A stretch of DNA of 64,000 nt, from NCBI RefSeq assembly GCF_003815535.1, contig NZ_RPFZ01000001.1, forward strand, positions 1,178,001 to 1,242,000, written 5' to 3'. The notes beneath the pieces were generated by a model. That model ran no database searches. It saw only the letters and a program-made list of their open reading frames with translations, and had not been told where the DNA came from. The stretch comes from Aurantiacibacter spongiae. GTDB lineage: Bacteria; Pseudomonadota; Alphaproteobacteria; Sphingomonadales; Sphingomonadaceae. The translations under genes were made by a program, and so were the position numbers. The stretch's first letter is position 1. The number at the start of each line of letters is the position of its first letter. Shown piece by piece: positions 5,640 to 22,047 of the stretch.

Positions 5640-5793
5640 CGACCTGCTCCAAATTTACCTGCGCCCGATCCTACCCGCGCCTCCCCGGCGGCACTTTTGC
5701 TATTGGGTGCAGAAACAGGGCGAAAACGGGAAAGCGCTCGTCGATTTTCGCGCCGGTCACCGCCTGAATATCCCCGTCCATTACCCTGAAGCC

Positions 5794-5812
5794 TTACCCC
5801 CTGTGGGTTAGG
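5794..5812. promoter_or_regulatory. Candidate EPS operator (site A)
   Basis: TTACCCCCTGTGGGTTAGG is an imperfect inverted repeat (TTACCC...GGGTTA). It overlaps the stop codon of the sulfotransferase gene and lies about 155 bp in front of the export-protein gene. It resembles the better-conserved sites at 10209, 13880, 19403 and 20854, but is the weakest of the set. The rest of the 5640-5807 gap shows no gene. Confidence 0.35.
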
Positions 5813-6677: not shown

Positions 6678-7914
6678 GGCGCATCTCCTGCTGCGCCTCG
6701 AGAGCATCGAGCGCGTCGCGCAGACCGTCCGCCAGGCGATGCATGTCGCTCGCGTCCAGCAGATGATCCACCGGCAGCGCGATGGCCGTGCGACCGACCG
6801 CGTGCGCGGTGGCCAGATCTCCGTCGCGGGGCGGCGGCCGGTCGGCGAAGGCGCTCTCGAGTGACATGTCGGGGCACGATCCGGCGGCGGCGGGAAGACC
6901 GCGCGCGTTCATTGCCGCGATCACCGGCGTGGCATCCCCCTCACCATCGGCGAGCCGGACGTAGAACCGGTAGAAGGCATGCGCCGCGTGGTCGGGCACA
7001 GGGGGCACGACAAGCCGCGCATCGGCGCCGAGCCGCTCGGCCAGGATCGCGGCATTGCCGCGCCGCCGCCCCAGCCAGCCGTCGAGCTTGGCGAGCTGCA
7101 CTTCACCGATGGCGGCCTGCATTTCGGTCAGCCGCCAGTTGGTGCCGAAGCTGTCGTGGATATAGCGAAACCCCGTTCCGCCATGCGCGGCGAATACCTT
7201 TTCGGGGTTCTTGCCGTGATCCTTGTAGGCCCAGGCACGCGCCCAGTGATCGCGATCCTTCAACAGCAGCATGCCGCCTTCGCCGCCGGTCGACATGATC
7301 TTGTCGGTGCAGAACGAGAACGCCGCCGCGTCGCCGAAGCTGCCGACCTTGCAGCCCCGCCATTCGGCCCCATGCGCCTGCGCGCAATCCTCGATCAGGA
7401 ACAGGTCGTGCTCGTCAGCGAGCGCGACCAGGGCGTCCATGTCGCAGGGGAAGCCGCCCAGATGCACGCACAGGATCGCCGCCGTCCGGCTGCTGATCAT
7501 CGCCCTCGCCGAGGCCGCGTGCATTCCCTGGCTGTCCGCCGCGATATCGGCGAAGACCGGGTCCGCCCCGACCGCGACCACGGCCGCGGCGCTCGCGAAG
7601 AAGCTGCGAGCCGGCACGATGACCTCGTCGCCCGGCCCGATACCGAGCGCGCGCAGCCCGAGTTCGAGGGCGAGCGTGCCGTTGGCCAGCGCAATCGCGT
7701 GGGGCGCCCCGACATAGTCGGCGAAGGCCTTTTCGAAGCGGCGGTTGCAATCGCCATGGACCAGCGCGTTGACCCGCCCGGTGGCGAGCACTTCGGCCAC
7801 CGCGTCGCGTTCGTCGTCGTCGAATTGCGGCCAGCGCAGGGCAGGATCGTCGAGCGGGCCGGATTTCGCGGTATCGTCGGGCGCTGCCGCGCGGAGGCTG
7901 GCCGGCCCGTTCAC
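6667..7914 (-). CDS. DegT/DnrJ/EryC1-type sugar aminotransferase
   Basis: 415-residue PLP-dependent aminotransferase of the sugar-modifying DegT family. The PLP lysine lies in FSFCTDKIMSTGGEGG, which matches the family's SF...K.....GEGG consensus. Upstream are ANGTLALELGLRALGIGPGD (phosphate-binding side) and FLIEDCAQAHGA, whose Asp contacts the pyridine nitrogen. The GTG at 7912-7914 overlaps the stop of the dehydratase gene (GTGA), so this start is preferred to in-frame codons inside that gene. Expected reaction: transfer of an amino group from glutamate to the 4-keto sugar made by the neighbouring CapD-like enzyme, giving a UDP-4-amino-4,6-dideoxy sugar. The exact stereochemistry is not predictable. 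Confidence 0.9.
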   Translation of the reverse strand: MNGPASLRAAAPDDTAKSGPLDDPALRWPQFDDDERDAVAEVLATGRVNALVHGDCNRRFEKAFADYVGAPHAIALANGTLALELGLRALGIGPGDEVIVPARSFFASAAAVVAVGADPVFADIAADSQGMHAASARAMISSRTAAILCVHLGGFPCDMDALVALADEHDLFLIEDCAQAHGAEWRGCKVGSFGDAAAFSFCTDKIMSTGGEGGMLLLKDRDHWARAWAYKDHGKNPEKVFAAHGGTGFRYIHDSFGTNWRLTEMQAAIGEVQLAKLDGWLGRRRGNAAILAERLGADARLVVPPVPDHAAHAFYRFYVRLADGEGDATPVIAAMNARGLPAAAGSCPDMSLESAFADRPPPRDGDLATAHAVGRTAIALPVDHLLDASDMHRLADGLRDALDALEAQQEMRHAV

Positions 7915-10097
7915 GCGCCCGCTCCATCGAGCTGCGGGAAGGCGGAGGCCCTGCCATCCGCGCGCGGGTTCATGACCCGTTCGATCAGGCTTTCCTCCGC
8001 AGCGAGCGCCTCGGGCTGCCACGCATCGGCGCGCACCTGCGCCGTGATCTGGGCCAGCATCTGCGACCACCGTGACAGGGCGGAGGCCTTCACCATCTTG
8101 TGCGTCAGCGCGCACAGTTCATCGGCATCACCGCTTTCGAGCAGCTTCTCCAGTTCGCGGAAGCCCTCGACCAGATGTTCGAGCGCGACCGGGGAGGGCA
8201 TCGCCTCGAAGATACCCGGAATGGCGCTCTCGATCTTCGATTCGCTTTCGTCGAACAGCTCCTCGAACATCTTTTCGCCGGGGCGCAGGCCGATGAAGTT
8301 GATCGGCACGTCGACATCGGGGCGCAGGCCGTGCATCCGGATGAGGCGCTTGGCGATGTCGACGATCCGCACTGGTTCGCCCATGTCCAGGACGAAGATC
8401 GTGCCACGATCGGATTCGGTCTGAAGCGCCCGTGCGCTGCTTTGCAGGATGAGCAGCACGGCCTCCTGCACGGTCATGAAGAAACGCTCGATGTCGGGGT
8501 GCGTGACCGTCAGCGGCTGGCCCGCGGCAAGCTGCCGCTGGAACAAGGGGATCAGCGAGCCGCTGGAACCTAGCACGTTACCGAAGCGCACGGTCAGGAA
8601 ACGCGGCGAATCCTCGTCGCAACTGCCGATAAGGTCGAGCGCCTGGCAATAGAGTTCGCCCAGCCGCTTGGTCGCCCCCATCAGGCCGACCGGATTGACC
8701 GCCTTGTCGGTCGAGACCTGCACCATCGCGGTAACGTCGAACGCGCAGGCCGCATCGGCGACGTTGCGCGTGCCCAGCACGTTGGTGTGGATGCCCGCCG
8801 CCGGATTGGTTTCCACCATCGGCACGTGCTTGAGCGCTGCGGCGTGGAAGACGATATCGGGCCGGCGCCGTTCGAACACCTGCCACAGCGCCGTGCGCTG
8901 GCGAATGGAGCACAGCTCGGGATGAATGACGAGATCGGGAAATTCCTCCCGCGTGCGCATCTCGGCGGCGTAGAGGCTGTATTCGGCATGATCGAGCAGC
9001 ACGATCTCGGCCGGATCGTAGCGGGCGATCTGGCGCACCAGTTCGCCCCCGATCGTGCCGCCAGCGCCCGTCACCATGATCCGCCGACCCGCGACCATCT
9101 GCTCGACATAGCTGTGTTCGATGTGAACCTCGGGCCGGCCGAGAAGGTCGGCGAGGGGCATCCGCTCGATGTCGACCGCGTCGCTGCCGCGCTGGCTGCG
9201 CGCCCAGGGCGGCTGGAAGCGGGATACGCTCAATTCCAGTTCCTCCGCCACCGAAGCCACGGCGACGATGTCTTGCGGGGTGATGAGGCTGGCGCTTTCC
9301 TGCACCACCAGATGGGCCGGCCGCCGGCCCCGCCGGTCGAGCGATTCGACGACCTGGTGGATATCCTCGGGCGCGCCCTCGATCCGCACGCCGCCGATAC
9401 GCAGGTTCTCGTCCTGGCCGCCGGGCGTCAATACGCCCACGATCTCCAGCCCGGAATCGGGATCGGTGCGCACCAGGTCGATCATGATGCGCGCCCAGTC
9501 TATCTCGCCCAGAAGGATCACCCGCCGCCGCGGGGCCAGCGCCGCGCGCCGCCGGTGCATCGCCAGCTGTTCGCGCAGGCCCCGGCGAACGGCGCGCACG
9601 GCGATCATCGCCACCAGCGTCAGCGCGACGTGCACCGCCACGAACAGGGCGAGCTCGGGTCCGTAGACGCGCTGCGGGAAGATGAAGGCCGCCGTCGCCA
9701 GCCAGATCAGCGTCGAGCTGCCCAGCAGCACCGCTGCGATGTAGGCGGTGTCGAGCACGGAGATGAAGCGCCAGCTGCGGCGGTACACGCCGAACACCAG
9801 CATGCTGACGATGAGCGCCGCGGTAAGGCCCGAGATGAACAGCCAGTCGGGCAAGGACGAAAGGGTGCGCACGCCCGGCAGTATCGCGCGGGACAACCGT
9901 AAGGCCAGCAGGATTGCTGCGGCGTCGAGCGACAGCACGACGATCAGCCGGACGATCGCGAAAGCGGTACGGTGGCGCACGGCGAGGACGCGGGTCTTCT
10001 GCGCCAACTGCTCTCCCAATCGCTCGGTGAAAGACCTGCTTTCGACCGCGTCGCGGCGGGGGGGTGCCGATCCTGCCGTTGCAGCCTGTTCGGACAT
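7911..10097 (-). CDS. CapD/FlaA1-type nucleotide-sugar 4,6-dehydratase, membrane form
   Basis: 728 residues. Four or five hydrophobic helices span roughly residues 45-175, followed by a CoA-binding-like/Rossmann segment (about 190-300) and the catalytic short-chain dehydrogenase domain. That domain has the NAD motif GAGGTIGG at about 345-352, STDK at 462-465 and MGATKR at 473-478, typical of PglF/CapD/FlaA1 enzymes that convert UDP-GlcNAc to the 4-keto-6-deoxy sugar. The start is the ATG at 10097 with AAGGGA upstream; an in-frame ATG 11 codons earlier lacks support. With the aminotransferase it forms the first two steps of a bacillosamine-type pathway, feeding the priming transferase at 11550. 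Confidence 0.92.
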   Translation of the reverse strand: MSEQAATAGSAPPRRDAVESRSFTERLGEQLAQKTRVLAVRHRTAFAIVRLIVVLSLDAAAILLALRLSRAILPGVRTLSSLPDWLFISGLTAALIVSMLVFGVYRRSWRFISVLDTAYIAAVLLGSSTLIWLATAAFIFPQRVYGPELALFVAVHVALTLVAMIAVRAVRRGLREQLAMHRRRAALAPRRRVILLGEIDWARIMIDLVRTDPDSGLEIVGVLTPGGQDENLRIGGVRIEGAPEDIHQVVESLDRRGRRPAHLVVQESASLITPQDIVAVASVAEELELSVSRFQPPWARSQRGSDAVDIERMPLADLLGRPEVHIEHSYVEQMVAGRRIMVTGAGGTIGGELVRQIARYDPAEIVLLDHAEYSLYAAEMRTREEFPDLVIHPELCSIRQRTALWQVFERRRPDIVFHAAALKHVPMVETNPAAGIHTNVLGTRNVADAACAFDVTAMVQVSTDKAVNPVGLMGATKRLGELYCQALDLIGSCDEDSPRFLTVRFGNVLGSSGSLIPLFQRQLAAGQPLTVTHPDIERFFMTVQEAVLLILQSSARALQTESDRGTIFVLDMGEPVRIVDIAKRLIRMHGLRPDVDVPINFIGLRPGEKMFEELFDESESKIESAIPGIFEAMPSPVALEHLVEGFRELEKLLESGDADELCALTHKMVKASALSRWSQMLAQITAQVRADAWQPEALAAEESLIERVMNPRADGRASAFPQLDGAGA

Positions 10098-10208
10098 CGT
10101 GCGTTCCCTTTCGTCCGGCGACCGGGACATGGCCGCCTGCGGGCGATTGTAGGCCCTGCGGGGGCGGCGCCGCCATTGGCCGCCGGACTACTATCCTTTA
10201 TTCTCGGC

Positions 10209-10249
10209 CTGTCCCGATGCGTAGGCACCCACCTATCCTTTCGAGAGGT
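10209..10249. promoter_or_regulatory. Candidate EPS operators (site B, two elements) in a divergent promoter
   Basis: CTGTCCCGATGCGTAGGC (10209-10226) matches 15 of 18 bases of the site at 19403-19420. Immediately after it, CTATCCTTTCGAGAGGT (10233-10249) resembles the sites at 13880 and 20854. The 10098-10386 gap separates the divergent dehydratase and glycosyltransferase genes and carries further CTATCC words at 10191 and 10289. No gene is seen in the gap. Confidence 0.5.
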
Positions 10250-10386
10250 CACGCAAATCTAAGGGGATGACCGCCGGCGTGCGCTGCCTATCCCTTTGCC
10301 CCGCCCATCGGCGCGGCCGGGCGTGTACACCTTTGGGCCATGTCGCTGCCCATCAGATCCGTTACCGCCGTGCGAGCGCGGCGCGC

Positions 10387-11553
10387 GTGAGGATCCTCGT
10401 CCTCTCCAGCCTGTCGATGTCGCTCGTCAACTTCCGCGGGGCGCTGCTGTGCGCGATGCGCGATGCCGGGCACGACGTGATCGCCTGCGCCCCGGACGCC
10501 GAACCCGGCGTGGTCGGCCAGCTGGAAGAATGGGGCATTGGCTTCCGCCTGACGCCGATGGCGCGCGCCTCGCTCGCTCCGCTCGAGGATCTGCGGACGC
10601 TCGCCGCCTATCGCCGGCTCATCTCGGCCGAGCGGATCGACATGGTGGTGGCCTACACGCAGAAACCGATCGTCTTCGGCGGCCTCGCCGCGCGCATGGC
10701 GCGCGTGCCCTTCTACGCCATCATGAGCGGCCTGGGCTACGTCTTCAGTCCTGTCGCCGACGACAAGCGGATGCTGCGCCGCCTGGTGGCGCGCGTCTAC
10801 CGCGCGGGCGTGGCCCGGGCGCGGGCGATATTCGTCTTCAATTCCGATGATCGCCGGATGATGCTGGAAGAAGGTATCGTGGACGAGGGGCAGCGCGTGT
10901 TGCAGGTGCCCGGATCGGGCGTCGATACGGCTCGCTTCGCGCAGGCGCCGCTTCCCGAAGGTCCGCCGACCTTTCTGATGGTAGGCCGCCTGATGCGCGA
11001 CAAGGGCGTGCACGAATACATCGCTGCGGCCCGCGCCATCAGCGCAGACCGGCCCGATGCCCGTTTCCTCCTGCTCGGTCGCCCCGAACCCGCCAACCCC
11101 ACGGGTCTGAGCCCGGAAGACCTCGCCCGCTTGCGCGCCGAGGGTATCGTCACCCTGCTCGACGAGGTGCGCGACGTGCGGCCCGTTCTCGCCCGGTCGC
11201 ACGTCTTCGTGCTGCCCTCCTTCTACCGGGAGGGTCTGCCGCGCACGATCCTGGAGGCTCTGGCGACGGGCCGGCCCGTCATCACCACCGACATGCCCGG
11301 GTGCCGGGACGCGATCGAACCGGGCGAAAACGGTCTTCTCGTGCCGCCACGCGATGCGCGGGCGCTCGAACGTGCGATGCAGACCCTCATGGACGATCCG
11401 GCGCGTGTGGCGCGCATGGGCGATGCCGCCCGGCGCACGGCGGTGGAGCGATATGACGTCGCCATCGTCAACGCCCTGCTGCTGCGCGAGATGGGCCTGG
11501 TCGCAAACGGGAAGACCGGTCAGCGGGCGGCCGGCGAACGGGTCGCGGCATGA
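10387..11553 (+). CDS. GT4-type glycosyltransferase
   Basis: 388-residue GT-B glycosyltransferase beginning at the GTG at 10387 (VRILVLSSLSMSLVNFRG). In-frame codons further upstream give a non-homologous, Arg-rich leader in the promoter region. The N-terminal domain has the S..NFRG acceptor pattern seen in PglA/WbpX-like enzymes (N-acetylgalactosaminyl or fucosyl transferases). The C-terminal part has PSFYREGLPRTILEALATGRP, the donor-binding block. It is the first gene of a plus-strand operon with the priming transferase, the formyltransferase and the deacetylase. It probably adds the second sugar to the undecaprenyl-linked primer; the donor is unknown. Confidence 0.88.
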   Translation: MRILVLSSLSMSLVNFRGALLCAMRDAGHDVIACAPDAEPGVVGQLEEWGIGFRLTPMARASLAPLEDLRTLAAYRRLISAERIDMVVAYTQKPIVFGGLAARMARVPFYAIMSGLGYVFSPVADDKRMLRRLVARVYRAGVARARAIFVFNSDDRRMMLEEGIVDEGQRVLQVPGSGVDTARFAQAPLPEGPPTFLMVGRLMRDKGVHEYIAAARAISADRPDARFLLLGRPEPANPTGLSPEDLARLRAEGIVTLLDEVRDVRPVLARSHVFVLPSFYREGLPRTILEALATGRPVITTDMPGCRDAIEPGENGLLVPPRDARALERAMQTLMDDPARVARMGDAARRTAVERYDVAIVNALLLREMGLVANGKTGQRAAGERVAA

Positions 11554-12149
11554 CCTTGCGCGTCGCGCTGGAAGCCGTGCTGGCGGCGCTGCTCCTCGTT
11601 CTGCTGGCGCCCGTCCTGCTGGCGACCGCGCTGGCAGTCCGGCTGGCACTGGGTCGCGGGGTGCTTTTCCGCCAGACTCGGAGCGGCCTTGGCGGCGTGC
11701 CGTTCCTGATGATCAAGTTCCGCACCATGACCGACGCGCGCGATGCACAGGGAAACCTTCTGCCAGACCCCGACCGTACGCCTGCGCTGGGACGCTGGCT
11801 GCGCCGGCTGCGGATCGACGAGCTTCCCGAACTGGTGAACATCGCGCGCGGCGAGATGGCGTTCGTCGGCCCGCGTCCGTTGCTGCCCGCCACGATCGCC
11901 GAAATGGGCGACGGCGGCATCGCGCGGGGCGCGGTGCGCCCCGGCCTCACCGGCTGGGCGCAGGTCAACGGCAATGCGCTCCTGTCGCGGGAGGACAAGC
12001 TGGCGCTCGATCTCGCCTATATCCGCGCCCGCTCGCTGCGCTTCGATACGAGGATCGTGTTGCGGACCGTGCTGGTCGTGCTGCTGGGTGAAAACGCGAC
12101 CATGACGAAGGAGGCTCGCGATGCGCGCGGTTCTCGTCGGCTCGGTTGA
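11550..12149 (+). CDS. Priming phosphoglycosyltransferase (PglC/WcaJ-type small form)
   Basis: 199 residues with one N-terminal hydrophobic helix (ALEAVLAALLLVLLAPVLLA) and the catalytic bacterial sugar-transferase core. The core contains FRQTRSGLGGVPF, the FRTM segment with acidic neighbours, RRLRIDELPELVNI, MAFVGPRPLLP and RPGLTGWAQVNG. These are the conserved blocks of monotopic enzymes that transfer a sugar-1-phosphate to undecaprenyl phosphate at the inner membrane. The length matches PglC rather than the polytopic WcaJ/WbaP. It overlaps the preceding gene by ATGA. With the dehydratase and aminotransferase it suggests that a di-N-acetylbacillosamine-like sugar is the first residue of the repeat. 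Confidence 0.93.
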   Translation: MTLRVALEAVLAALLLVLLAPVLLATALAVRLALGRGVLFRQTRSGLGGVPFLMIKFRTMTDARDAQGNLLPDPDRTPALGRWLRRLRIDELPELVNIARGEMAFVGPRPLLPATIAEMGDGGIARGAVRPGLTGWAQVNGNALLSREDKLALDLAYIRARSLRFDTRIVLRTVLVVLLGENATMTKEARDARGSRRLG

Positions 12150-13044
12150 GAGCAGTCGCATTGCGCTGGAGGCGCTCGGCGATGCCGCCGACTGGACGGT
12201 GGCGGGCGTCGTTTCGCTGCGCGATGCGCTGTCGGGGCGGCATTCCGATTTCGTCGACATGGCGGCGGCGGCGAAGGCGCGGGGGGCCCGGCCCATTCAG
12301 GTGGCCAACGTGAACGATCCCGAGGCCCTCTCGGCGATCCGCGACTGCCGGCCCGACTACCTGTTCGTCATCGGCTGGTCGCAGATCTGCGGGCCGGACT
12401 TTCGCGCCATCGCGCCCGGTAGGACGATCGGTTATCACCCCGCGGCCCTGCCCCGGATGCGGGGGCGCGCGGCAATCCCGTGGACGATCCTCGCCGACGA
12501 GAAGATCACTGCGGGAAGCCTGTTCTGGATCGACGGCGGAACCGATACCGGTGCGTTGCTCGACCAGGCCTATTTCCATGTCGCGCCCGGGGAAACCGCG
12601 GCGACGCTGTATGCCAAGCACATGCGGGCGCTGCGTGAAATGCTCGCTCGCACCTTGCCCGTCCTGGCGCGCGGCGAGGAGCCGCGGCGCGAGCAGGACG
12701 AGGATTGCGCAACCTGGTGCGCGCGGCGGACGGCGGCGGACGGGCGGATCGACTGGACACGACCCGCCTCGCAGATCGCCCGCCTGGTGCGCGCTGTCGG
12801 TCGCCCCTATCCCGGCGCCTGGACCTGCGCCGGCGACAATCGCCTGACGATCTGGTCCGCGCGCGAGTGCGGATCGGGCGAGCGCCATCTGGCCGGCGCG
12901 GGGCAGGTGATCAGCCGCGAGGAGAACGCCTTTACCGTATCGTGCGGCAATGGCGGGGCGTTGCGGGTCGAGGAATGGGAAAGCACCACCGGTCGGATGC
13001 CCGGGGTGCACGTCCTGCTCGGAGAAGGAGCCGCTTCGTGCTGA
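12121..13044 (+). CDS. Formyltransferase-family protein, lacks the catalytic Asn
   Basis: 307 residues, similar to methionyl-tRNA and sugar formyltransferases (N-terminal formyl-THF fold, C-terminal OB-like domain). The strong ribosome site AAGGAGG sits just before the ATG at 12121, inside the 3' end of the priming transferase gene (29-bp overlap). The signature reads IGYHPAALPRMRGRAAIPW at residues 103-121. The catalytic His is present (H106) and an Asp lies in DGGTDTG (about 142), but the Asn of the N-x-H-x-S-L-L-P motif is Gly104. Located before a PIG-L deacetylase, it probably acylates an amino sugar of the EPS. Whether it transfers formyl groups is uncertain because of the missing Asn. 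Confidence 0.75.
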   Translation: MRAVLVGSVESSRIALEALGDAADWTVAGVVSLRDALSGRHSDFVDMAAAAKARGARPIQVANVNDPEALSAIRDCRPDYLFVIGWSQICGPDFRAIAPGRTIGYHPAALPRMRGRAAIPWTILADEKITAGSLFWIDGGTDTGALLDQAYFHVAPGETAATLYAKHMRALREMLARTLPVLARGEEPRREQDEDCATWCARRTAADGRIDWTRPASQIARLVRAVGRPYPGAWTCAGDNRLTIWSARECGSGERHLAGAGQVISREENAFTVSCGNGGALRVEEWESTTGRMPGVHVLLGEGAASC

Positions 13045-13718
13045 GCGAGGACATGCGCACGATCGCGGTGGTCGCGCCCCATCCCGACGACGAGATCCTG
13101 GGATGCGGCGGGACGATCAGCCGCTTCGTCGCGGAGGGGCGGAGCGTCCACGTGGTGATCGTCACCCGCGGGCGGCCGCCGAAATTCCCGGAAGATCTCG
13201 TCAATCGGGTGCGCGCGGAAACGCAGGCGGCGCACGACCTCCTCGGGATTCATGCCACCCACCATCTCGACCTGCCGGCCGCCGAACTTGATACGCTGCC
13301 TCAGGCGGAGTTGAACGCGACCGTGGGAAAGGCGCTGGGCGCGATCCGCCCCGACGCGCTGTTCGTTCCCTTCAACGGCGACATCCACGCCGATCATCGC
13401 GCCTGTTTCGACGCGGCGATGGTCTATGCCCGCCCGCGCGACGGAGATTGTCCGCGGCTCGTGCTCGCCTACGAAACACTGTCGGAAACGAACTGGTGGG
13501 CGCCTGGCCTGACACCGGGCTTCCTGCCCAACGTCACGATCGACATCTCCGGCCATCTCGAAGCGAAGCTGGAGGCGTTTCGCTGCTTCGCTTCGCAGGT
13601 GAAGGACTTTCCCGACGAACGGTCTTTCGAGACGATCCGCGCCTTGGCGAAGCTGCGGGGATCGACCGTGTTTTGCGAAGCCGGCGAGGCGTTCGCGCTG
13701 GTGCGCCAGATCATCTGA
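13038..13718 (+). CDS. PIG-L (LmbE-like) N-acetyl sugar deacetylase
   Basis: 226 residues from a GTG at 13038, behind GGAGAAGGAG (13021-13030), one of the strongest ribosome sites in the locus. The zinc-binding motif APHPDDEILGCGG lies near the N-terminus and the third ligand lies in IHADHRACFD. The fold and length fit de-N-acetylases that act on GlcNAc-type sugars or nucleotide sugars. It overlaps the formyltransferase-like gene by 7 bp. A deacetylase encoded next to an acyl/formyl transferase suggests that an N-acetyl group is removed and replaced by another acyl group on one sugar of the EPS. Acceptor level (nucleotide, lipid-linked or polymer) is unknown. Confidence 0.85.
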   Translation: MLSEDMRTIAVVAPHPDDEILGCGGTISRFVAEGRSVHVVIVTRGRPPKFPEDLVNRVRAETQAAHDLLGIHATHHLDLPAAELDTLPQAELNATVGKALGAIRPDALFVPFNGDIHADHRACFDAAMVYARPRDGDCPRLVLAYETLSETNWWAPGLTPGFLPNVTIDISGHLEAKLEAFRCFASQVKDFPDERSFETIRALAKLRGSTVFCEAGEAFALVRQII

Positions 13719-14049
13719 GATCGCTCTTGGCGGCAGAAGGCCGGCGGGATCGGCCGACTCGCATTGTGCATCTGCGAACAAATATGCTCCGATTAGGAGG
13801 ATTCTTTCCGTGTCGCATATGTTCAAAAGTTAAAATCTGGTACTGTTTCAATCAGATACGATTCAACATATGAGCGCCTCTACCACTTTCGAGTAGCTAG
13901 CTGAAATAGTAAACAAGTGGTATACAAGTTATCGACAACAAAAATGATCCGTTGTTGCTCTCCGTCCGGATTACGGGGCGTGCGCCGACCTGTGGAAGGC
14001 GCAAGATCCGGGGTGAGGGTTCGTGCTTTCTCGAAGGGGGAAATTCATC
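13719..14049. promoter_or_regulatory. AT-rich upstream region of the LuxR-type regulator, with candidate operator (site E)
   Basis: About 330 bp without a gene and clearly more AT-rich than its surroundings between 13780 and 13960. CTACCACTTTCGAGTAG at 13880-13896 matches the site at 20854 over its first 12 bases except one. An 8-bp inverted repeat CATATGTT/AACATATG lies at 13816-13823 and 13865-13872. The regulator's ribosome site GAAGGGGG is at about 14034-14041. Placement suggests that the regulator controls its own gene. Confidence 0.45.
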
Positions 14050-14841
14050 ATGTCTGCCAATCGCAATGTCGCGATCATATGTCGCAATACCATTACGCGC
14101 GAAGGCTTGTGCCGCATTCTCGACGAGACGCGGTTCAATGTCCTGCAGGCCGCGGATTCGCCGGCGCAGCTGACCCGGGCCGACAGTCCCGAACTGCCCG
14201 CCGGGACGCTCGTCCTCATCGACGACGGAACCTGTCAGTGCGACGCGGCGACGGTGAAGGATCTTCATTCCGCCCATCCCGGCATCCGCCCGGTGGTGCT
14301 GACGGAAAGCTTCGACTATTCGGCGATGATCGAGGCCCTGCGCAGCGGTGCCTTCGGCTACATCGTCAAGGAAATCTCGTGCGAGCCGCTGGTGAACACG
14401 CTCGAACTTGTCGCACACGGGGAAAAGGTGCTGCCCAGCCAGCTGGCTGACGTGCTGCAGACCCGCCCCGCGCTCGGCGCGGTGGCCGATGTCGCCGACG
14501 TGCAGGCGGCAACCAATCTCTCGCAGCGTGAGGTCGAGATACTCGAATGGCTCATCATGGGTTGTCCCAACAAGGTCATCTCGCGCCACATGGACATCAG
14601 CGAGGCGACGGTGAAGGTTCACGTCAAGGCGATCCTGCGCAAGCTGAACGTCAAGAACCGCACCCAGGCGGCAATCTGGGCAGCCAATAACGGGCTGCGC
14701 GGGCGGTCCTTCGACGAAGCCTCCACGCCGGCGCTACCGCTTGGCACGAAGGCACCGGCCCCCGTCGCGACCGAGGCTCTCGTCGCCGCCGATGCGATCA
14801 AGTGGCCGACGGCCAGCGCCGGACTGACCGTTCCGGCCTGA
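14050..14841 (+). CDS. NarL/LuxR-type regulator with atypical receiver domain
   Basis: 263 residues; the ATG at 14050 follows GAAGGGGGAAATTCATC. Residues 6-125 form a receiver-like domain. The acidic pair that binds magnesium in true receivers is replaced (IICRNT at 9-14, where DD is expected). The candidate phospho-acceptor (D58), T85 and K107 remain. Residues 156-215 are a LuxR-type helix-turn-helix (LSQREVEILEWLI...NKVISRHMDISEATVKVH...LNVKNRTQAA). A 45-residue Ala/Pro-rich tail follows. No histidine kinase is nearby. It sits in the middle of the EPS locus and is the best candidate, with its partner at 16262, for binding the inverted repeats upstream of the EPS units. Confidence 0.85.
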   Translation: MSANRNVAIICRNTITREGLCRILDETRFNVLQAADSPAQLTRADSPELPAGTLVLIDDGTCQCDAATVKDLHSAHPGIRPVVLTESFDYSAMIEALRSGAFGYIVKEISCEPLVNTLELVAHGEKVLPSQLADVLQTRPALGAVADVADVQAATNLSQREVEILEWLIMGCPNKVISRHMDISEATVKVHVKAILRKLNVKNRTQAAIWAANNGLRGRSFDEASTPALPLGTKAPAPVATEALVAADAIKWPTASAGLTVPA

Positions 14842-14907
14842 TCTCCCTCTTCCCGGTCCGCTCCGGTTGCCGTTGGTTCCGGGGCGGGCCCGCGAGGCTT
14901 CGCCGTC

Positions 14908-16236
14908 ATGGCAAACGCGCAGACCCGGTCGTTCGACCTCAGATCCCGGCTGATCCCGATCGGCCACCTGCTTTCGGGCAATTTCATGAATGCGCTGATC
15001 GTCCTGGTGAGCACCGCCATCGCGGCGCGCGCGCTGGGGCCGGCGGTCTACGGCGTCATGGTGATCGTGCTGTCCTTTGGCCGTTTGATCGAACGGCTGG
15101 TGCGGTTCGAATCGTGGCAGGCGGTGATCCGCTACGCCGCCGAGGAAGAGATCACCGGCGACAAGCAGCGCCTCTCGCGGCTCTACGCCTTCGGCCTGGG
15201 GGTCGATGCGCTGGCCGCGATGGCCGCGGGGCTGCTTTCCGTGGCCATAGCGTGGCTGGCGGGATCGTGGTTCGATATCGGGCCGGGGCATCTCCTGCTC
15301 GTGGCAATCTATGCCGTCGCCCTCGTCTTCAACATCGCCGGCGTTCCCAATGCGGCCCTGCGCATGGCCGGGCAGTTCAAGCTGCTCGCCTATGCCCAGA
15401 TGGCCGGCAACGTGCTGCGCATCGTCCTGGCCGCGATCTGCCTGTGGCTGGACGCCGGAGTGACCGGCTTCATGATTGCCTGGACGCTTGCGCAACTGCT
15501 CGGGTCGCTGCTGATGATCTGGCTCGGCCTGCGGGCCATGACGCACATGGGTATTCCGGCTCCGTGGCGGGCCGATCTGCGCGGCCTGCACAAGGCCTTC
15601 CCGGGCTTTTTCAGCTTTGCCTTTTCGTCCAATCTCTCGCTGACGCTGCGCGTCATCACGACCGAGGCCGACACGCTGTTCGTGGGGGGCGCGCTGGGGC
15701 CGTCGGCCGCCGCGGTCTATTACCTCGCCAAGCGGATCGCCAAGGTAGCCATGCAGGTCGGTGCGCAGGTCCAGCAGGTGATCTATCCCGACGTCGCACG
15801 CCTGTGGATGCAGGGTGCGGTGCGGGAATTCCGCTCGGCCACGCTCCAGGTACAGGCAGCGCTCGCTGCGGTGTGCCTGGTGATGATCGGCGGCGCGTGG
15901 GTGCTGGGGCGACTGGTCATCGACCTGGGGTTGGGAACCGAATACGCCAGCGCCTATCCGCTCCTGCTGACGCAGCTTGTGGCGGTGTTCTTCACCATGC
16001 ACGCCGCCCCGGCGCGCTCGGCGGTCCTCGCCATGAACGAATCGTGGCGCATCCTCACCTACATGCTGATGGGCACGGTTGCCTTCTGGGCCGTCGCCTT
16101 CGTGGCGGTTCCGGTGTTCGGGGCAATGGGGGCGAACATGGCGCATATCGCGTTCGCCGCCATCACGGCCATATTGCTGGATATCCGGTTCCACCGTCGC
16201 ACGATGCCGCTGGCACAAGCCGCCGCGGCGCGCTGA
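14908..16236 (+). CDS. Wzx-like lipid-linked oligosaccharide flippase
   Basis: 442-residue polytopic inner-membrane protein of the polysaccharide-transporter/MOP superfamily. About twelve hydrophobic segments are recognisable, starting with HLLSGNFMNALIVLVSTAIA followed by ARALGPAVYGVMV, the usual N-terminal signature (ARxLGPxxYG). It should flip the undecaprenyl-linked repeat unit to the periplasm, where the Wzy-like protein at 19444 polymerises it. It stands 66 bp after the regulator gene in the same direction and converges on the second regulator gene (16262). No candidate EPS operator was found directly upstream, so it may be co-transcribed with the regulator. Confidence 0.88.
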   Translation: MANAQTRSFDLRSRLIPIGHLLSGNFMNALIVLVSTAIAARALGPAVYGVMVIVLSFGRLIERLVRFESWQAVIRYAAEEEITGDKQRLSRLYAFGLGVDALAAMAAGLLSVAIAWLAGSWFDIGPGHLLLVAIYAVALVFNIAGVPNAALRMAGQFKLLAYAQMAGNVLRIVLAAICLWLDAGVTGFMIAWTLAQLLGSLLMIWLGLRAMTHMGIPAPWRADLRGLHKAFPGFFSFAFSSNLSLTLRVITTEADTLFVGGALGPSAAAVYYLAKRIAKVAMQVGAQVQQVIYPDVARLWMQGAVREFRSATLQVQAALAAVCLVMIGGAWVLGRLVIDLGLGTEYASAYPLLLTQLVAVFFTMHAAPARSAVLAMNESWRILTYMLMGTVAFWAVAFVAVPVFGAMGANMAHIAFAAITAILLDIRFHRRTMPLAQAAAAR

Positions 16237-16261
16237 CGCGGCCCGTCCTTTATCCAGCCCG

Positions 16262-16960
16262 TCAGCGGACTGCGGCGAGGTAGTGCGCGGCGATCTGCGT
16301 GCGGTTGCGCAGCCCGCTCTCCGCCATGATGGCGCGCACATGCACCTTCACGGTGCTTTCGCTGATCGAGAGCATCTGGGCTATCGTCTTGTTGGAATGG
16401 CCCTTTACCAGCAGATCGAGAACCTCGCACTGCCGCGCGGTGAGTTCGCCGAAGCCGGATCGTACGTCGCCGTTAGCGGCGTTTTCCGAGCCGTCCGATG
16501 CTAGCATGGCCATGATCGCATCGAAGGTGTCCGCCGGCAGAACGGCATATCCCGCCGCCGCCAGACGCAACACCGCGCCCAGTTCCGACAGCGCCGATCG
16601 ATCGTCGAATATCGCCCCGGCGCCGGCGTTCAGAAGCGTACCGACGATGTCGTGCTGCTCGCCGAAATCGACGATGGCGACATGCACGGCATCGGGAAAC
16701 AGCTCGCGCGCGCGGGCGAGTTCGCTCGTCTGCGAACCGTTGGCGTTGCGATCGGGGAGGCGCAGGACCACGATATCGGGCGGATCGAGCACGTCGTGCG
16801 CATCGAGGCTCGCTCCGCAGGACGAAAGGCTCAACCCCTGCGTCGCTTCCAGAGCGGCGAGAATGGCATGGCGCGTCACCGGGTGCGGATCGACCAGCAG
16901 GACCGACGCCTCGCGCATCGTGGGCGCGGCCATGCTGCGTTGCGCCCCCGCCACTCTCAT
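16262..16960 (-). CDS. NarL/LuxR-type regulator with degenerate receiver domain
   Basis: 232 residues from the ATG at 16960, which overlaps the stop of the kinase gene (ATGA). ATG codons at 16933 (with GGGGG upstream) and 16918 are plausible alternatives, because the receiver fold begins only at about residue 18. In the receiver, DP replaces the acidic pair (LLVDPHP), the phospho-acceptor Asp is Arg67 (IVVLRLPD) and the conserved Lys is Asp120. The domain should therefore not be phosphorylated. The C-terminal LuxR helix-turn-helix (LTARQCEVLDLLV...NKTIAQMLSISESTVKVHV) is intact. Co-translation with the BY-kinase suggests feedback between polymer assembly and transcription. Confidence 0.85.
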   Translation of the reverse strand: MRVAGAQRSMAAPTMREASVLLVDPHPVTRHAILAALEATQGLSLSSCGASLDAHDVLDPPDIVVLRLPDRNANGSQTSELARARELFPDAVHVAIVDFGEQHDIVGTLLNAGAGAIFDDRSALSELGAVLRLAAAGYAVLPADTFDAIMAMLASDGSENAANGDVRSGFGELTARQCEVLDLLVKGHSNKTIAQMLSISESTVKVHVRAIMAESGLRNRTQIAAHYLAAVR

Positions 16961-19269
16961 CGCGAAGCGGACTGGCTGAAGGCGGTGCGCGTGAAAGGCG
17001 CCCGGATTGCCGCCCCCAGCCTGTCCGCCCAGTTGCCGCGCACCGGTTCCTCGTAATCCGAATAATAGCGCGAAGCGTTCATGTAGAAATCGGCCATGTC
17101 GCCATAGGACCGGGAGGCATGGCGCGCGTAGTCGACCTGGTTGATGACCGCCGCCGTGACGCTGCCGCCGAGCATCTGCATGGTGACGCGCAGCTGTTCG
17201 ATGGTGGTCTTGCCCCACTTCACCAGAACCAGCGTCTGATCGGCCAGCTGCGAGAGCGTGCGCGCATCGTGTACCGCGAGAACGGGCGGCGCGTTGATGA
17301 CGACGAGGTCGAAGCGATCCTTCAATTCGTTCATCAGGCGCGCGACCTGCCAGCCCTTGATCAGCGCGGCGGGATCGTGAATCGCCTCGGTGGTGCTGAG
17401 GACGACGGGGCCGGCGGTGTGGCCGTCCTCTGTTTCGGCCGCATGCGGGCCGACAGCACCGGGCAGCATCAGTTCGCCGCTTTCCGAATTCGTGCGCAGG
17501 CAGTCGAGCAGGCTCGGCGTACCGCTTCGCGCCTGGATCTCGCGCAGGATGTTGGTCTGCTTGTTGCGCAGGTCGAGGTCGAGGACGACCGCGGTATGGC
17601 CCAGCGCCGTCGCCGCGGCGGCGAGCGACAGGGCGACGCTCGATTTGCCGTCCCCCGGCAGCGGAGAGGTGACGAGCACCGAATGGCGGCCCGGATGCCC
17701 CGCGCCTTCCAGCACGCGGCTGGCCATGGAGCGCGACACTTCGGAATAAAGTGATTGCGGCTTCGTCAGCACCGGGTTGTCCGCCACGGTTTCGGGCAGG
17801 CCATCTTCGAGCTGCGGCAACATGCCGAAGGTTCGCAGGCCGAACAGACGGGCCAGCTGTTCGCTCGAACGAAGCCGGTTGTCGAGCAGTTCGATCGCCA
17901 GCACCAGCAGCATCGCGATGATGAAGGAGCCGATGAGAGCGGCCAGCGTCGCCTTTTTGGGATTGGGCGAGATCGGATCGGTCGGCACGGTGGCGGCCGA
18001 GACGAGGGTGGAATTCACCCCGGTCGTGTCGGGCTCGGCGCGGATGTTCTGCGCGCGTTCCGCCGTCGTGATGTAGGCCGCGCGGGCGACCTCCGCCCGC
18101 CGTTCGAGCGCGGCGAGTTCGACGTTGTTGGCGGTGTTGGCATAGGCCTTCCCGGTCAGCTGGTTCATCCGCGAACGCAGATTTCCCGCGCGCGCGGCCG
18201 CCGCCCGCGCCTCGGCCGAGGCCAATTGCCGCTCGCGCGAGGCATCGGCGGCGTTCTGCGCGGCGGTCGCGGCGACGACCGCGTTCTGTTCGCGCCGCAT
18301 GTCGCTTGCCACCCGGTCGATCTGCGCCTGCAGGCTCTGCATGCGCGGGTGGTTCGGGCCGAGCGTGGTCGAGAGATCGGAATATTGCTGCGCCAGCTCG
18401 TTGTTCTGGCGGATGAGCTGCTGGAGCACCGGAGAGGTCGCGCCGGCCGTCGTGCGTGCGCCGGCCGCGCCCGCTACCCCAGCGGCGCGCTGTGCATCGG
18501 CCGCCTCCAGCGCATCGGCGCTGGCGGCTTCCACCGCGATGCGGTTGAGCTGCTGGTAATCCTCCATGCCCCCGGCGCCGACCAGCATGCCGCGCGTCTG
18601 CCGGAAATCGGCCACGGCCTGTTCGGCCTCGTTCAGTTCGGCGGCCAGCCGCTCGCGTTCGACACCGACGTCGGACAGCAGCTTGTCGCGCCAGGTGCGC
18701 CGCCGCTCCACGCGCATCTGGCGCAGGCTCTCGACATACTGATTGGCGATCCGCTGGGCCAGCTGCGGGCTGGTGGATCGCACGGTGATATCGATGAGGT
18801 CGGACGCGTTGCTGGTGGTGATGATGGTCTGCGAGGACAGGTACCGCGCCGCCTGGCGCACCCCGATGCGCGGGCCGCCGGTGAATACCGGATTGGTGTT
18901 GAGGGCCATCGCCGCCACCACCTCCTCCGCCAGCGCCGGCGAGCGGTAGATCTCCGCCTCGTTGTTGACGCGCTGCATGTTGCGCGCCTCGTCCGCCTGG
19001 TTCGCGCCGCTGGAATCGTTGAGTTCGACCTGCACCATGGCTGTCGATTCGTAGACCTTTTCCTGCATCAGCTGGCTGGTGAGCACGACAGCCGTAGTCA
19101 CCGCCACGATCACCGCGATCAGCTTCCAGTGACGCGCCACCATGCGCCACAGCTGGCGCGCGGACAGGTTCGGCGCGCTCTGCTGATAGCCTGGGGAATA
19201 GGGAGTCGCCGCCGAGAGGGCGCGGCCGCCATTGTCCCCGTGATGGTCCAGAAGCGTGTTGCTCGACAT
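16957..19269 (-). CDS. Polysaccharide co-polymerase / BY-type tyrosine autokinase (Wzc/ExoP-like)
   Basis: 770 residues. An N-terminal Wzz domain has a first membrane helix (HWKLIAVIVAVTTAVVLTSQ, about residues 48-67), followed by a long periplasmic coiled-coil region and a second helix near LAALIGSFIIAMLLVLAIEL. The cytoplasmic kinase has Walker A in SPLPGDGKSSVALSL, Walker A' in AVVLDLDLRN and a C-terminal tyrosine cluster (ADFYMNASRYYSDY). This is the single-chain arrangement of proteobacterial Wzc. It controls chain length and polymerisation with the Wzy-like protein. It is the first gene of a two-gene unit with the regulator at 16262; two CTATCC-type elements precede it (19359, 19403). 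Confidence 0.93.
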   Translation of the reverse strand: MSSNTLLDHHGDNGGRALSAATPYSPGYQQSAPNLSARQLWRMVARHWKLIAVIVAVTTAVVLTSQLMQEKVYESTAMVQVELNDSSGANQADEARNMQRVNNEAEIYRSPALAEEVVAAMALNTNPVFTGGPRIGVRQAARYLSSQTIITTSNASDLIDITVRSTSPQLAQRIANQYVESLRQMRVERRRTWRDKLLSDVGVERERLAAELNEAEQAVADFRQTRGMLVGAGGMEDYQQLNRIAVEAASADALEAADAQRAAGVAGAAGARTTAGATSPVLQQLIRQNNELAQQYSDLSTTLGPNHPRMQSLQAQIDRVASDMRREQNAVVAATAAQNAADASRERQLASAEARAAAARAGNLRSRMNQLTGKAYANTANNVELAALERRAEVARAAYITTAERAQNIRAEPDTTGVNSTLVSAATVPTDPISPNPKKATLAALIGSFIIAMLLVLAIELLDNRLRSSEQLARLFGLRTFGMLPQLEDGLPETVADNPVLTKPQSLYSEVSRSMASRVLEGAGHPGRHSVLVTSPLPGDGKSSVALSLAAAATALGHTAVVLDLDLRNKQTNILREIQARSGTPSLLDCLRTNSESGELMLPGAVGPHAAETEDGHTAGPVVLSTTEAIHDPAALIKGWQVARLMNELKDRFDLVVINAPPVLAVHDARTLSQLADQTLVLVKWGKTTIEQLRVTMQMLGGSVTAAVINQVDYARHASRSYGDMADFYMNASRYYSDYEEPVRGNWADRLGAAIRAPFTRTAFSQSASR

Positions 19270-19402
19270 GGGTTCGATCCTGACAGGTTCAGCCGGAATT
19301 GGGCCCGGCAGGTGACATCATGCAGGGGCGGCCGTGCCGGAAGCAAAGGTTCTTGCGTCTATCCCCCAAGGTTGCGCCGCGGCGCGCATGGTAGGAAGCG
19401 GA

Positions 19403-19420
19403 CTATCCCGATGGGTAGGT
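19403..19420. promoter_or_regulatory. Candidate EPS operator (site C)
   Basis: CTATCCCGATGGGTAGGT is an inverted repeat (CTATCCC...GGGTAG) about 134 bp upstream of the kinase gene start. It matches 15 of 18 bases of the element at 10209. A further GTCTATCCCCC word lies at 19357-19367. The 19270-19443 gap holds no gene. Confidence 0.5.
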
Positions 19421-19443
19421 GTACGGCCAATCGGGGGCGCTGG

Positions 19444-20781
19444 TCAGGCCGGAAGCGGCCGCGGCCCGATGCTTTCGAACTGCGAGGGCCAGACATTGGC
19501 GGCGCGCGCATGGATCAGACTCAGGACGAGCATCACCGGGGCGATCCATTGCCGCGAATACATATGCGGATAGGAAACGGTGTAGATCAGGAACACCACC
19601 ACTACCGCCCCCGCGACCGCGCCTTCGGCCCGCATCGTCGGCCATGCGCCGAACGACATCGCGAGAAGCAGGACCAGCATCGCCGCGAGGCCCCCGATCG
19701 CCAGTGCTCCGCCCTCGTTCCAGATGAGGAGATAGAGGTTGTGCACGGGATTGTCGTGGGCGCTGATCACCCGGTATTCGTCCACCCCCATTCCGATGAT
19801 CGCGTTGTGCTCTGCCAGGTGCCACGCCTCCTCGATCAGTTCGGCGCGGTTGACGAAGGTGCCCGCCTGGTCGATCTCGCCGGTCTCGATGGCGTTGCCG
19901 ACCCGCTCCTGAAACGTCGCGGGCAATGGCGCGCCGCTGGCCACGAACAGGCCGATCGCCACCGTTGCGGCAACGCCCGCGATCGCCAGCCACCGCCAGT
20001 TGAACAGGGCCAGCGTGATGACGAGCGCAATGCAGGTGGAGGAGAAGCCGGTGAAGGATGCGCTCAGGATCAGGCCCCAGCCGAGCAGGAAGAACGCCGG
20101 CACGCCCAGCAGGGGGCGGATCAGGCGGCGGTGCATGCAGTAGATCAGCATGGGCATGGCGAACGCCACCGACGCGCCGTTGGGATTGGGCTCGCCCGCC
20201 ATGGCGCCGATCCGGCCGTTGCCCGTGATGAAGCCGTTACCGAAGAAATCGGGGAGCGCGTCGAATGTCAGCAGCTGACTGGCGAGGATCCCGACGATCT
20301 GCGACAGCGTGACGCCCACAACGAAGAACAGCGGCAGCCGCCGCGCCTGCTCGCGCGGAACGCTCATGAACAGGAAGGCAAGGGCCAGGTAGGCGACCGC
20401 ATACTGGCTGATGACGTTGACCGCGCGCAGCGGATCCCCGTTGATCAGCGTGCTCAGCATCAATCCACCCAAAAGGCACCCGACCGCGGCGATCCAGTAG
20501 ACCGTGAGCGGGCCGAAGGGTGACTGCCGCAGCTTGCCCCGCAGCGTCACCAGCACGAGGCTCGACAAAAGGGCGAAATCGGTGAGCGTGAAGTTGATGT
20601 CGCCGAGACGCAGCAGGTTCCAGCAGGCGAAGAAGCAACCCACGCACAGCAGCCACCAAGCGAGCTTCATCACGGGATCGCGCGCCGGGGCCCGAGCCGC
20701 CGGATCGACCTGATCGACCGCATCGACCTGATCCATCCCTTCCGGGCCTGCGGGAACCGCGTCTGAATAGAACTCTCGCAT
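19444..20781 (-). CDS. O-antigen ligase/polymerase family protein (Wzy-like)
   Basis: 445 residues from the ATG at 20781 (MREFYSDAVPAG); an in-frame TTG at 20820 could add 13 residues. The protein is polytopic, with about eleven hydrophobic segments, and has the large periplasmic loop of the Wzy_C family around GNAIETGEIDQAGTFVNRAE and LAEHNAIIGMGVDEYRVISA. The NPVHNLYL block that follows (usual form H-N-x-Y-L) is the family hallmark. In a locus with Wzx, Wzc and a phosphoglycosyltransferase, and away from lipid A core genes, it is most likely the EPS polymerase. It is divergent from the sulfotransferase at 21031, and both face the operator-like sites at 20854-20946. Confidence 0.85.
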   Translation of the reverse strand: MREFYSDAVPAGPEGMDQVDAVDQVDPAARAPARDPVMKLAWWLLCVGCFFACWNLLRLGDINFTLTDFALLSSLVLVTLRGKLRQSPFGPLTVYWIAAVGCLLGGLMLSTLINGDPLRAVNVISQYAVAYLALAFLFMSVPREQARRLPLFFVVGVTLSQIVGILASQLLTFDALPDFFGNGFITGNGRIGAMAGEPNPNGASVAFAMPMLIYCMHRRLIRPLLGVPAFFLLGWGLILSASFTGFSSTCIALVITLALFNWRWLAIAGVAATVAIGLFVASGAPLPATFQERVGNAIETGEIDQAGTFVNRAELIEEAWHLAEHNAIIGMGVDEYRVISAHDNPVHNLYLLIWNEGGALAIGGLAAMLVLLLAMSFGAWPTMRAEGAVAGAVVVVFLIYTVSYPHMYSRQWIAPVMLVLSLIHARAANVWPSQFESIGPRPLPA

Positions 20782-20853
20782 CGCGCGATCCGTTGTGAAC
20801 GCGCCGACCGGTGCGGGCAAAGGCGATTCGGATGCGACGTGGAATCTTCCCGA

Positions 20854-20946
20854 CTACCTCTTTCGGGGTAGCGCAACCCTGCCATCGGTACGCCGGCGCG
20901 CGGTCGGTCGTGTGGGGGGCGGCGCCTATCCCTGCGAACCTATCCC
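20854..20946. promoter_or_regulatory. Candidate EPS operators (site D) in a divergent promoter
   Basis: CTACCTCTTTCGGGGTAG at 20854-20871 is a 7-4-7 inverted repeat with one mismatch, the most symmetric of the set. Two CCTATCCC words at 20925-20932 and 20939-20946 lie 14 bp apart. The 20782-21030 gap separates the divergent polymerase and sulfotransferase genes and shows no gene of its own. Confidence 0.5.
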
Positions 20947-21030
20947 AAATCGCCAACGGCATGCCGCTCGCGCTATTGGGGCTGCGGGCGCCGCGGGTTA
21001 GCGTGCGGCCCCGAGATACCGGGAGTCGAC

Positions 21031-22047
21031 ATGGCACGAACAGCTGCGCACGATACGCTGGCGCTGGAACCGGAGCGAGCCGGAGACGTGCCGGGCGCAT
21101 CATCCGGCCGGGGGATGGCGCACGCAATCGCGGCTGCGCCGGTGACGGTCGTCTACATCGCCGGCTACGGGCGCAGCGGAACGACCCTGCTCGACATCTC
21201 GCTGGGAGCGGCCGAGGACGTGGCATCCTGCGGCGAACTCGCCACGCTGGCGCGCCATGTCTGGCATGAAGGCGAATTCTGCGCCTGCGGGGAGACCGTG
21301 CGCGATTGCGCCCAGTGGCGCGACATCGTCGCGGACTGGATGCCCGGCGATAGCGATTCCGGACTGGCCGAACTTGCACGGCTTCAACGGCCCCGCGAAG
21401 CGATGATCTCGCCCGCGCGGTGGAGCGACCGGCACGTGCCCGGCCGCTCGAGCGAACGGTTCGCCCGCGTGACTGGCGACCTCTACCGCCGCATCGCGGC
21501 GCGGACCGGCAAATCGATCGTGATCGATTCTTCCAAACTGCCGGGGCGCGGCCTGGCGCTGGCGGACATGCCCGGCATCGCGCTCTACGTCGTGCACATG
21601 ACGCGCGACGCGCGCGGAGTGGTGTGGTCGCTGCGCAAGCCGCACAAGATCGACAAGGAAGCCGGTGTTCAGCGCGAATTGCGGCCCAAACCGCTGCTCT
21701 ACGCCGCCGCGCGCTGGGCGCTGGTCAACCGCGCCGCCGAAGCTCTTGCGCAAAAGGTCGGCCCGGACCGTTCGATGCGCGTGCGCTACGAGGATTTCGT
21801 CGCCGATCCGCAAGGTACGGTGCGCGCGATCCTGACGATGGTACGCGGACGCCCGTCCCGCGACCCGGTCCTCGATGCGCAGGGCCGCGTCTTCCCGGGG
21901 CATCAGATGGCCGGCAGCCGTCATCGCATGGCTCCGTCCATCCGCTTCCGCGCCGACGAAAGCTGGAAGCGCGACATGCCGGCGCGCGAACGTCGGATCG
22001 TCACCGCCGCCACCCGCCCGATGCTGGCGGCCTACGGATACATCTGA
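21031..22047 (+). CDS. Sulfotransferase family protein
   Basis: 338 residues; the ATG at 21031 follows GGGAG. The PAPS loop is GYGRSGTTLLDISLG, the 3'-phosphate block is VVHMTRDARGVVWSL and the Ser is in SIVIDSSKLPGRG, the pattern of the third bacterial sulfotransferase group in this locus. Its FCACGETVRDCAQWRDI segment contributes three cysteines near residue 90-105, a common feature of this subgroup, possibly a metal or disulfide site. It is the first gene of a plus-strand unit that continues with the lyase (5 bp downstream) and a glycosyltransferase. The probable target is the EPS or its lipid-linked precursor. Confidence 0.87.
   Translation: MARTAAHDTLALEPERAGDVPGASSGRGMAHAIAAAPVTVVYIAGYGRSGTTLLDISLGAAEDVASCGELATLARHVWHEGEFCACGETVRDCAQWRDIVADWMPGDSDSGLAELARLQRPREAMISPARWSDRHVPGRSSERFARVTGDLYRRIAARTGKSIVIDSSKLPGRGLALADMPGIALYVVHMTRDARGVVWSLRKPHKIDKEAGVQRELRPKPLLYAAARWALVNRAAEALAQKVGPDRSMRVRYEDFVADPQGTVRAILTMVRGRPSRDPVLDAQGRVFPGHQMAGSRHRMAPSIRFRADESWKRDMPARERRIVTAATRPMLAAYGYI

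Follow-up and report, generated by a model that had tools for sequence, protein, structure and literature searches.

A NarL-type dyad and its candidate reader LuxR1 in the exopolysaccharide locus of Aurantiacibacter spongiae

We analysed a stretch of 64,000 nucleotides of Aurantiacibacter spongiae (contig NZ_RPFZ01000001.1, positions 1,178,001 to 1,242,000; in the following called the window), which contains an exopolysaccharide (EPS) locus of this 2.86 Mb genome (G000). Pfam matches in the locus comprise Wza, Wzc (Wzz), Wzy, a flippase, a FlaA1-like epimerase, a bacterial sugar transferase and glycosyltransferases, together with three sulfotransferases and two regulators of NarL/LuxR type, here named LuxR1 and LuxR2. 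Genes were called by an in-house script. Our subject is the short repeats in the intergenic gaps of this locus. A first-pass annotation had described them as one inverted repeat with NarL-like half-sites, placed before the EPS transcription units. The sequences it quoted are all present, both regulator genes are real, and the gap with its site 13880 stands before one of them, luxR1. It caught a real signal, but by way of a wrong motif.

A search of the own genome with LuxR1 gave four matches only, LuxR1 and LuxR2 among these. Relatives of LuxR1 were found in 59 of 397 genomes of the family (E < 1e-30) and in 25 of the 94 genomes of one other genus, g97 (E < 1e-40). Twelve g97 loci are largely syntenic with the window, and at least two core EPS homologues surround the LuxR1-family gene in 32 of the 45 loci that were fetched as longer stretches.

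When the PDB was searched with the LuxR1 sequence, NarL was the best of 38 matches (E 3.3e-22) and the NarL-DNA complex 1je8 the third (E 4.8e-14). LuxR1 has a GerE/NarL-type helix-turn-helix (HTH; Pfam GerE, E 6.4e-22) with the recognition helix of NarL: the core TVKVHVK is identical in the two proteins, and K189, V190, H191, K193, R197 and K198 are invariant in 63 of 63 members of the LuxR1 family. The positions K189, V190 and K193 we take to be those of the NarL base contacts. An AlphaFold2 model (mean predicted local distance difference test score 85) shows a receiver-like domain and an HTH, and its Foldseek matches include LiaR, VraR, NarL, FixJ, RcsB and VpsT. In the LuxR1 family the acceptor position 58 is D in 56 of 63 members and E in the other seven, and Lys107 is kept in 56 of 63; the first position of the acidic pair, which was aligned to NarL by eye, is acidic in none of the 63. 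LuxR2 carries R in place of the acceptor Asp. The Pfam match to Response_reg lies below its cut-off, and the full set of residues of a classical phosphorylated response regulator (acceptor Asp, acidic pair and Lys) was not found. Since the receiver lacks the acidic pair, yet has the acceptor Asp and the Lys, the activity of LuxR1 may be set otherwise than by ordinary phosphorylation.

The clearest site of the locus is the dyad between wzy and a sulfotransferase gene (Table 1), whose geometry is exactly the 7-2-7 of NarL. NarL prefers this arrangement. Among its published 7-2-7 sites is TACCCCTAAAGGGGTA (PMC4549865; see also PMC2718512). Without mismatch, the pattern CTACCN8GGTAG occurs at a single place in the whole genome, window position 20854. 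The pattern TACYNCN4GNRGTA has two places, one in the EPS locus and the other inside a tRNA-Ser gene (G000:C1:991624-991639, L154); the latter spells a perfect TACCCC-N4-GGGGTA, probably in the variable arm, and is a decoy for motif searches.

The same geometry is found upstream of luxR1 in related genomes. The relatives' luxR1 box is TACCACCAAAGTGGTA, with TACCTCTTTCGGGGTA as its counterpart in the window; written as heptamers it reads TACCACC-AA-AGTGGTA, a 7-2-7 pair. Nine close relatives have TACYACCAAAGTNGTA or a near variant some 270 bases before luxR1; CCAAAGTNGTA is present in exactly one copy per 20-kb locus, each time upstream of luxR1. The regular expression for this box was built from nine of the twelve syntenic relatives, L093, L147 and L148 being left out as more diverged; among these, an exact dyad is present in the genome of L147 and one with a mismatch in that of L093, and the genome of L148 has none. 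The spacing of TACNNC-Nk-GNNGTA was varied over the upstream regions of 62 LuxR1 relatives: k=4, which corresponds to 7-2-7, gave 11 loci, and every other k between 0 and 10 gave 0-1. When a single mismatch was allowed, 24 loci were obtained for k=4 versus 2-10 for the other spacings. TAC-N10-GTA is present in 12 loci, in 11 of them 269-308 bases upstream of luxR1 as measured from the chosen start codon (the exception is L065), and two of the loci with the exact dyad, L064 and L066, come from another genus, g96. In 11 genomes of relatives, 5 of 18 places with TACYNCN4GNRGTA are at the luxR1 promoter. A control with the reversed pattern (25 versus 2) is unmatched and was not used, because the reversed word has other composition biases.

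A matrix built from the nine relatives' luxR1 boxes was run over 407,712 positions (204 kb of the genome). It ranked the window site at 13906, before luxR1, third and the wzy site at 20853 fourth; ranks one and two are other intergenic sites. In the luxR1 gap of the window TACCACT occurs twice, at 13881(+) and 13916(-), which was reached in 2 of 20,000 first-order simulations of the gap. This test, like the degenerate heptamer TAYCNMT, was defined after the relatives' boxes had been viewed. The heptamer at 13881 equals one half of the relatives' luxR1 operator, and the site at 13880 has its half-site in common with 20854. The consensus of the NarL heptamer is TACYYMT. In its strict form it occurs twice in the EPS gaps versus 0.19 expected from other gaps; TACCTCT and TACCCAT match it, and TACCACT deviates at position 5. 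For 13880 and 20854, the suggestion of NarL-type heptamers that a regulator of the locus probably reads is likely to be right.

Immediately before luxR1 the relatives share a stretch of about 150 bases with hardly any variation (L091:12640-12800 and the corresponding place in ten further g97 loci; mean identity of the alignment 83%). This conserved leader, for which the window shows no clear counterpart before 14050, is possibly a leader RNA or an overlapping small frame; no Rfam match at gathering score was obtained for it in L061 and L002.

Table 1. Regulator genes, dyads and further short elements of the EPS locus (window coordinates)
Feature	Position	Strand	Context
LuxR1	14050-14841	+	NarL-type regulator with receiver-like domain and NarL-type HTH; proposed reader of the dyads
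LuxR2	16262-16960	-	Second regulator of NarL type; phospho-acceptor Asp replaced by R
7-2-7 dyad TACCTCT-TT-CGGGGTA	20855-20870		Between wzy (-) and sulfotransferase gene (+)
Imperfect dyad TACCACT-T-TCGAGTA	13881-13895		Before luxR1; spacer one base shorter than 7-2-7
TAGTAAA-CA-AGTGGTA	13907-13922		Before luxR1; 7-2-7 spacing, one good heptamer (TACCACT, - strand, 13916-13922)
NarL heptamer TACCCAT	19411-19417	-	Upstream of wzc; part of the 19403 site of the first-pass annotation
CTATCC in ACTATCCTTTATTC	10191-10196	+	Upstream of flaA1-like gene; aligns with conserved block of relatives
CTATCC	10233-10238	+	EPS gap
CTATCC (TATCCCT)	10288-10293	+	EPS gap
CTATCC	19359-19364	+	Upstream of wzc
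CTATCC in GACTATCCCGATGG	19403-19408	+	Upstream of wzc
CTATCC	20926-20931	+	Upstream of wzy
CTATCC in CCTATCCCAAATCGCC	20940-20945	+	Upstream of wzy; aligns with CCTATCCGAATTTGCC of relatives
Site CTGTCCCGATGCGTAGGC of the first-pass annotation	10209-10226	+	Match to 19403 at chance level
'Weaker' site (5794) of the first-pass annotation	5791-5813	-	Stem-loop at sulfotransferase 3' end; judged outside the operator set

Apart from these dyads, the proposed set of sites falls apart. For 10209 and 19403 the identity of 15 of 18 bases is correct, but it is no more than expected by chance: the best ungapped 18-base match among the five EPS gaps is just this 15 of 18, and it was reached 29 times in 100 when these gaps were shuffled and 50 times in 100 when random sets were drawn from the genome's other gaps. 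The 18-base motif was rejected as a real repeat. The sites at 10209, 10233 and 19403 are poor inverted repeats, half-site spacing differs from site to site, and the two groups into which the sites had been sorted do not make one motif. All sites had been placed in promoter gaps; the one at 5794 does lie in a gap but extends into the 3' end of the sulfotransferase gene 5808-6707(-), where the RNA folds into a stem-loop (z -2.1), and was rejected as an operator. The proposed check, confinement to EPS promoters, gave a split result, since the full dyad is confined to them, pairs of the word CTATCC are enriched without being confined, and the match of 10209 and 19403 is at chance level. The claim of one shared inverted repeat is for this reason wrong.

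What 10233, 19403 and five further places do share is CTATCC. It is the most enriched hexamer of the five EPS gaps, with seven copies in 1,139 bp versus seven in the 16,756 bp of other gaps of the same genome that served as comparison; an equally enriched 6-mer was obtained in 18 of 1000 random gap sets. All seven copies point the same way: seen on the coding strand of the leftward genes, they read GGATAG. CTATCC pairs at distances of 8-38 bases, a range set so as to take in the three EPS pairs, are found at 14 places in the genome: three are in the three EPS gaps, and two of the other 11 were judged intergenic. One of the non-EPS pairs falls in an alanine-racemase-like frame (G000:C1:108761, recognised by eye). 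In the g97 alignment of the gap between flaA1 and the glycosyltransferase gene two conserved blocks are seen. The first, GGTAATCGGTCGANCGGACACTATCCTTTATCCC, aligns with the window at 10191, and the second, GGGGTAATCTACCGATGC, has no clear counterpart there. In the gap between wzy and the sulfotransferase gene the block of the relatives aligns at 20939, with ACCC for ATCC in two of them. Upstream of wzc the g97 relatives have GACTATTCCGGATCG at the place of GACTATCCCGATGG, a match that was judged by eye because the gap lengths differ. In three loci of the own genus (G034, G017 and G019) CTATCC was not seen at the corresponding places. One g97 genome (L156:5298) has TACCCCATCGGGGGTA next to a copy of CTATCC; the intergenic gap concerned lies close to genes of unrelated kind. 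The results suggest CTATCC as a second cis-element, partly kept in relatives and less certain than the dyads.

We consider it rather probable that LuxR1, a NarL-type regulator whose receiver is atypical, controls its own gene; it would act on its own promoter and on that of wzy and the sulfotransferase gene, with CTATCC as a second element. The 7-2-7 geometry of the dyad, its conservation upstream of luxR1 in relatives and the conserved recognition helix are observed. From these we infer that LuxR1 is the binder of the dyads and that it would control transcription there. In the proposed mechanism LuxR1 would keep the DNA code of NarL, that is TACC-type heptamers, best as 7-2-7 inverted pairs, and would use it at 13881-13922 before its own gene and at 20855-20870 in the divergent wzy/sulfotransferase promoter. 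Its activity might be set by its own level via autoregulation, or by a ligand, to name examples. In the CTATCC copies before flaA1, wzc and wzy we see possible variant half-sites of LuxR1 or LuxR2, with TATCC in place of TACCC; this is the weakest step. The EPS cluster would then probably carry its own built-in switch.

Several observations weigh against this model. The window's luxR1 promoter has no clean 7-2-7 dyad, and the 13880 site reached only rank 194 in the matrix scan and is by itself weak evidence; the window operator would accordingly have to be a degraded or shifted form of that of the relatives, with the clean dyad at wzy. Neither in G034 nor in the g97 relatives was the 20855 dyad found in the gap between wzy and the sulfotransferase gene. 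At luxR1 the dyad is missing in one of the twelve syntenic relatives (L148, genome G451) and in the majority of the more distant members of the 62 loci, and the 11 exact loci are not independent, because they belong mostly to one genus. As to CTATCC, the flaA1 block has TCATCC in its place in five of nine close relatives, and in several loci of greater distance no copy of the word was seen in the gaps.

Among the other explanations, one that we regard as a serious possibility, though somewhat less than an even one, assumes two regulators with two codes, so that LuxR1 would read the 7-2-7 TACC dyads and LuxR2 or an unlinked factor CTATCC at flaA1, wzc and wzy. The CTATCC copies have no 7-2-7 partner and occur singly or as direct copies, all oriented alike, LuxR2 orthologues are present in most fully syntenic relatives, and the wzy block keeps CTATCC or CTACCC at one aligned place across species, all of which speaks for two codes; the very exchange of TATCC and TACCC at this block, however, also fits a single NarL-type reader, and L148 retains ACTATCCTTTAT at the flaA1 block where no LuxR2 orthologue was detected at the locus (one LuxR2 match may be a cross-match to LuxR1). 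The common orientation of the seven copies would also be expected if CTATCC, as GGATAG on the coding strand, were a core promoter part of the leftward EPS genes and no operator, and GATAGT may be likened to a -10 hexamer. We hold this to be unlikely: no sigma-70-like promoter was found in 10000-21100, which also removes such promoters as a source of the words, the gaps have two to three copies each at differing distances, and conservation in the relatives runs downstream of the word instead of toward the -35 region.

It is, finally, quite improbable that the matches are chance words in AT-richer gaps, used by no regulator of the locus. Chance does account for the 15 of 18 match, the frequency of equally enriched words in random gap sets is in its favour, and several motif definitions were picked after looking. 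It is opposed by the single occurrence of the full dyad genome-wide, by the spacing optimum over the relatives' 62 upstream regions and by the fact that 20853 and 13906 were predicted from the boxes of the relatives. The autoregulated NarL-type LuxR1 is the reading we retain.

Compared with NarL of E. coli, LuxR1 shares the TVKVHVK core and TACC-type heptamers as inverted pairs with a 2-bp spacer. It differs by the missing acidic pair of the receiver, by the position of its gene in an EPS locus with the dyad before the own gene, and by the half-site TACCACT, which is one base off the consensus; no nitrate genes were seen in the scanned part of the window's locus. Control of surface polysaccharides by NarL/LuxR-type proteins is known as a kind from VpsT and RcsB. 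VpsT of Vibrio combines an atypical receiver with a LuxR HTH and is tied to the control of matrix polysaccharide. LuxR1 has this domain pair too, with VpsT (3kln, 3klo) among its Foldseek matches, but its sequence match to VpsT is far weaker (1.1e-9 versus 3.3e-22 for NarL) and its sites have NarL geometry. The cyclic di-GMP motif W[FLM][TS]R known from VpsT was not seen by eye in the translations of LuxR1 and LuxR2. RcsB, a NarL/FixJ-type regulator of capsule genes with a different box, is likewise among the Foldseek matches, but not among the 38 PDB sequence matches. The sphingomonad (sphingan) EPS regulators SpnA, GelA and SsA are, in the accessible part of their description, hybrid histidine kinases encoded outside the cluster and, unlike LuxR1, not NarL-like DNA-binding proteins (PMC5399355). 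LuxR402 of Novosphingobium HR1a is described, in the part available, as a LuxR-solo protein that affects the cell envelope and whose promoter responds to acyl-homoserine lactone (PMC10413115). These partial descriptions give no support for LuxR402 or SpnA being the same regulator as LuxR1. Literature searches, which covered listings, abstracts and passages, yielded no report that places a NarL-type operator in the EPS locus of a sphingomonad, which leaves its absence unproven; nor did we find the targets of a LuxR-named EPS-locus gene of LuxR1 type described.

With regard to gene order, the EPS locus (window 667-24667, compared with L091 and L092) is closer to the other genus g97 than to loci of its own genus, and this fuller match suggests horizontal transfer of the locus. 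In the relatives wzc and wzy are separated by an additional reading frame of some 1 kb (L091:18450-19440, L093:7340-8310), which is absent from the window. Relatives of LuxR1 at about 55% identity also sit away from any such EPS locus (L134, L135, L136, L138, L088), and four of the genomes concerned keep a dyad like TAAGCCTAAAGTAGTA at about -270 (L108, L109, L110, L112). Three loci with 29-40% identity, obtained from a search of genome contigs for related loci, were judged unrelated and set aside.

A wider view, which we put forward only tentatively and hold to be rather unlikely, is that of an orphan regulator family which would be spread through this bacterial family and would have kept the NarL code, lost ordinary phosphorylation and become a self-regulating switch of EPS loci; here LuxR1 and LuxR2 would share TAYCC half-sites, arranged as dyads and same-strand arrays, possibly as homo- or heterodimers. 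If the proposed role of LuxR1 is right, a LuxR-named gene of EPS loci would gain a DNA code, an operator and a first list of targets, and the polysaccharide regulation of this family would become testable. It would also mean that a NarL-type code was retained after the loss of the classical phosphorylation pocket.

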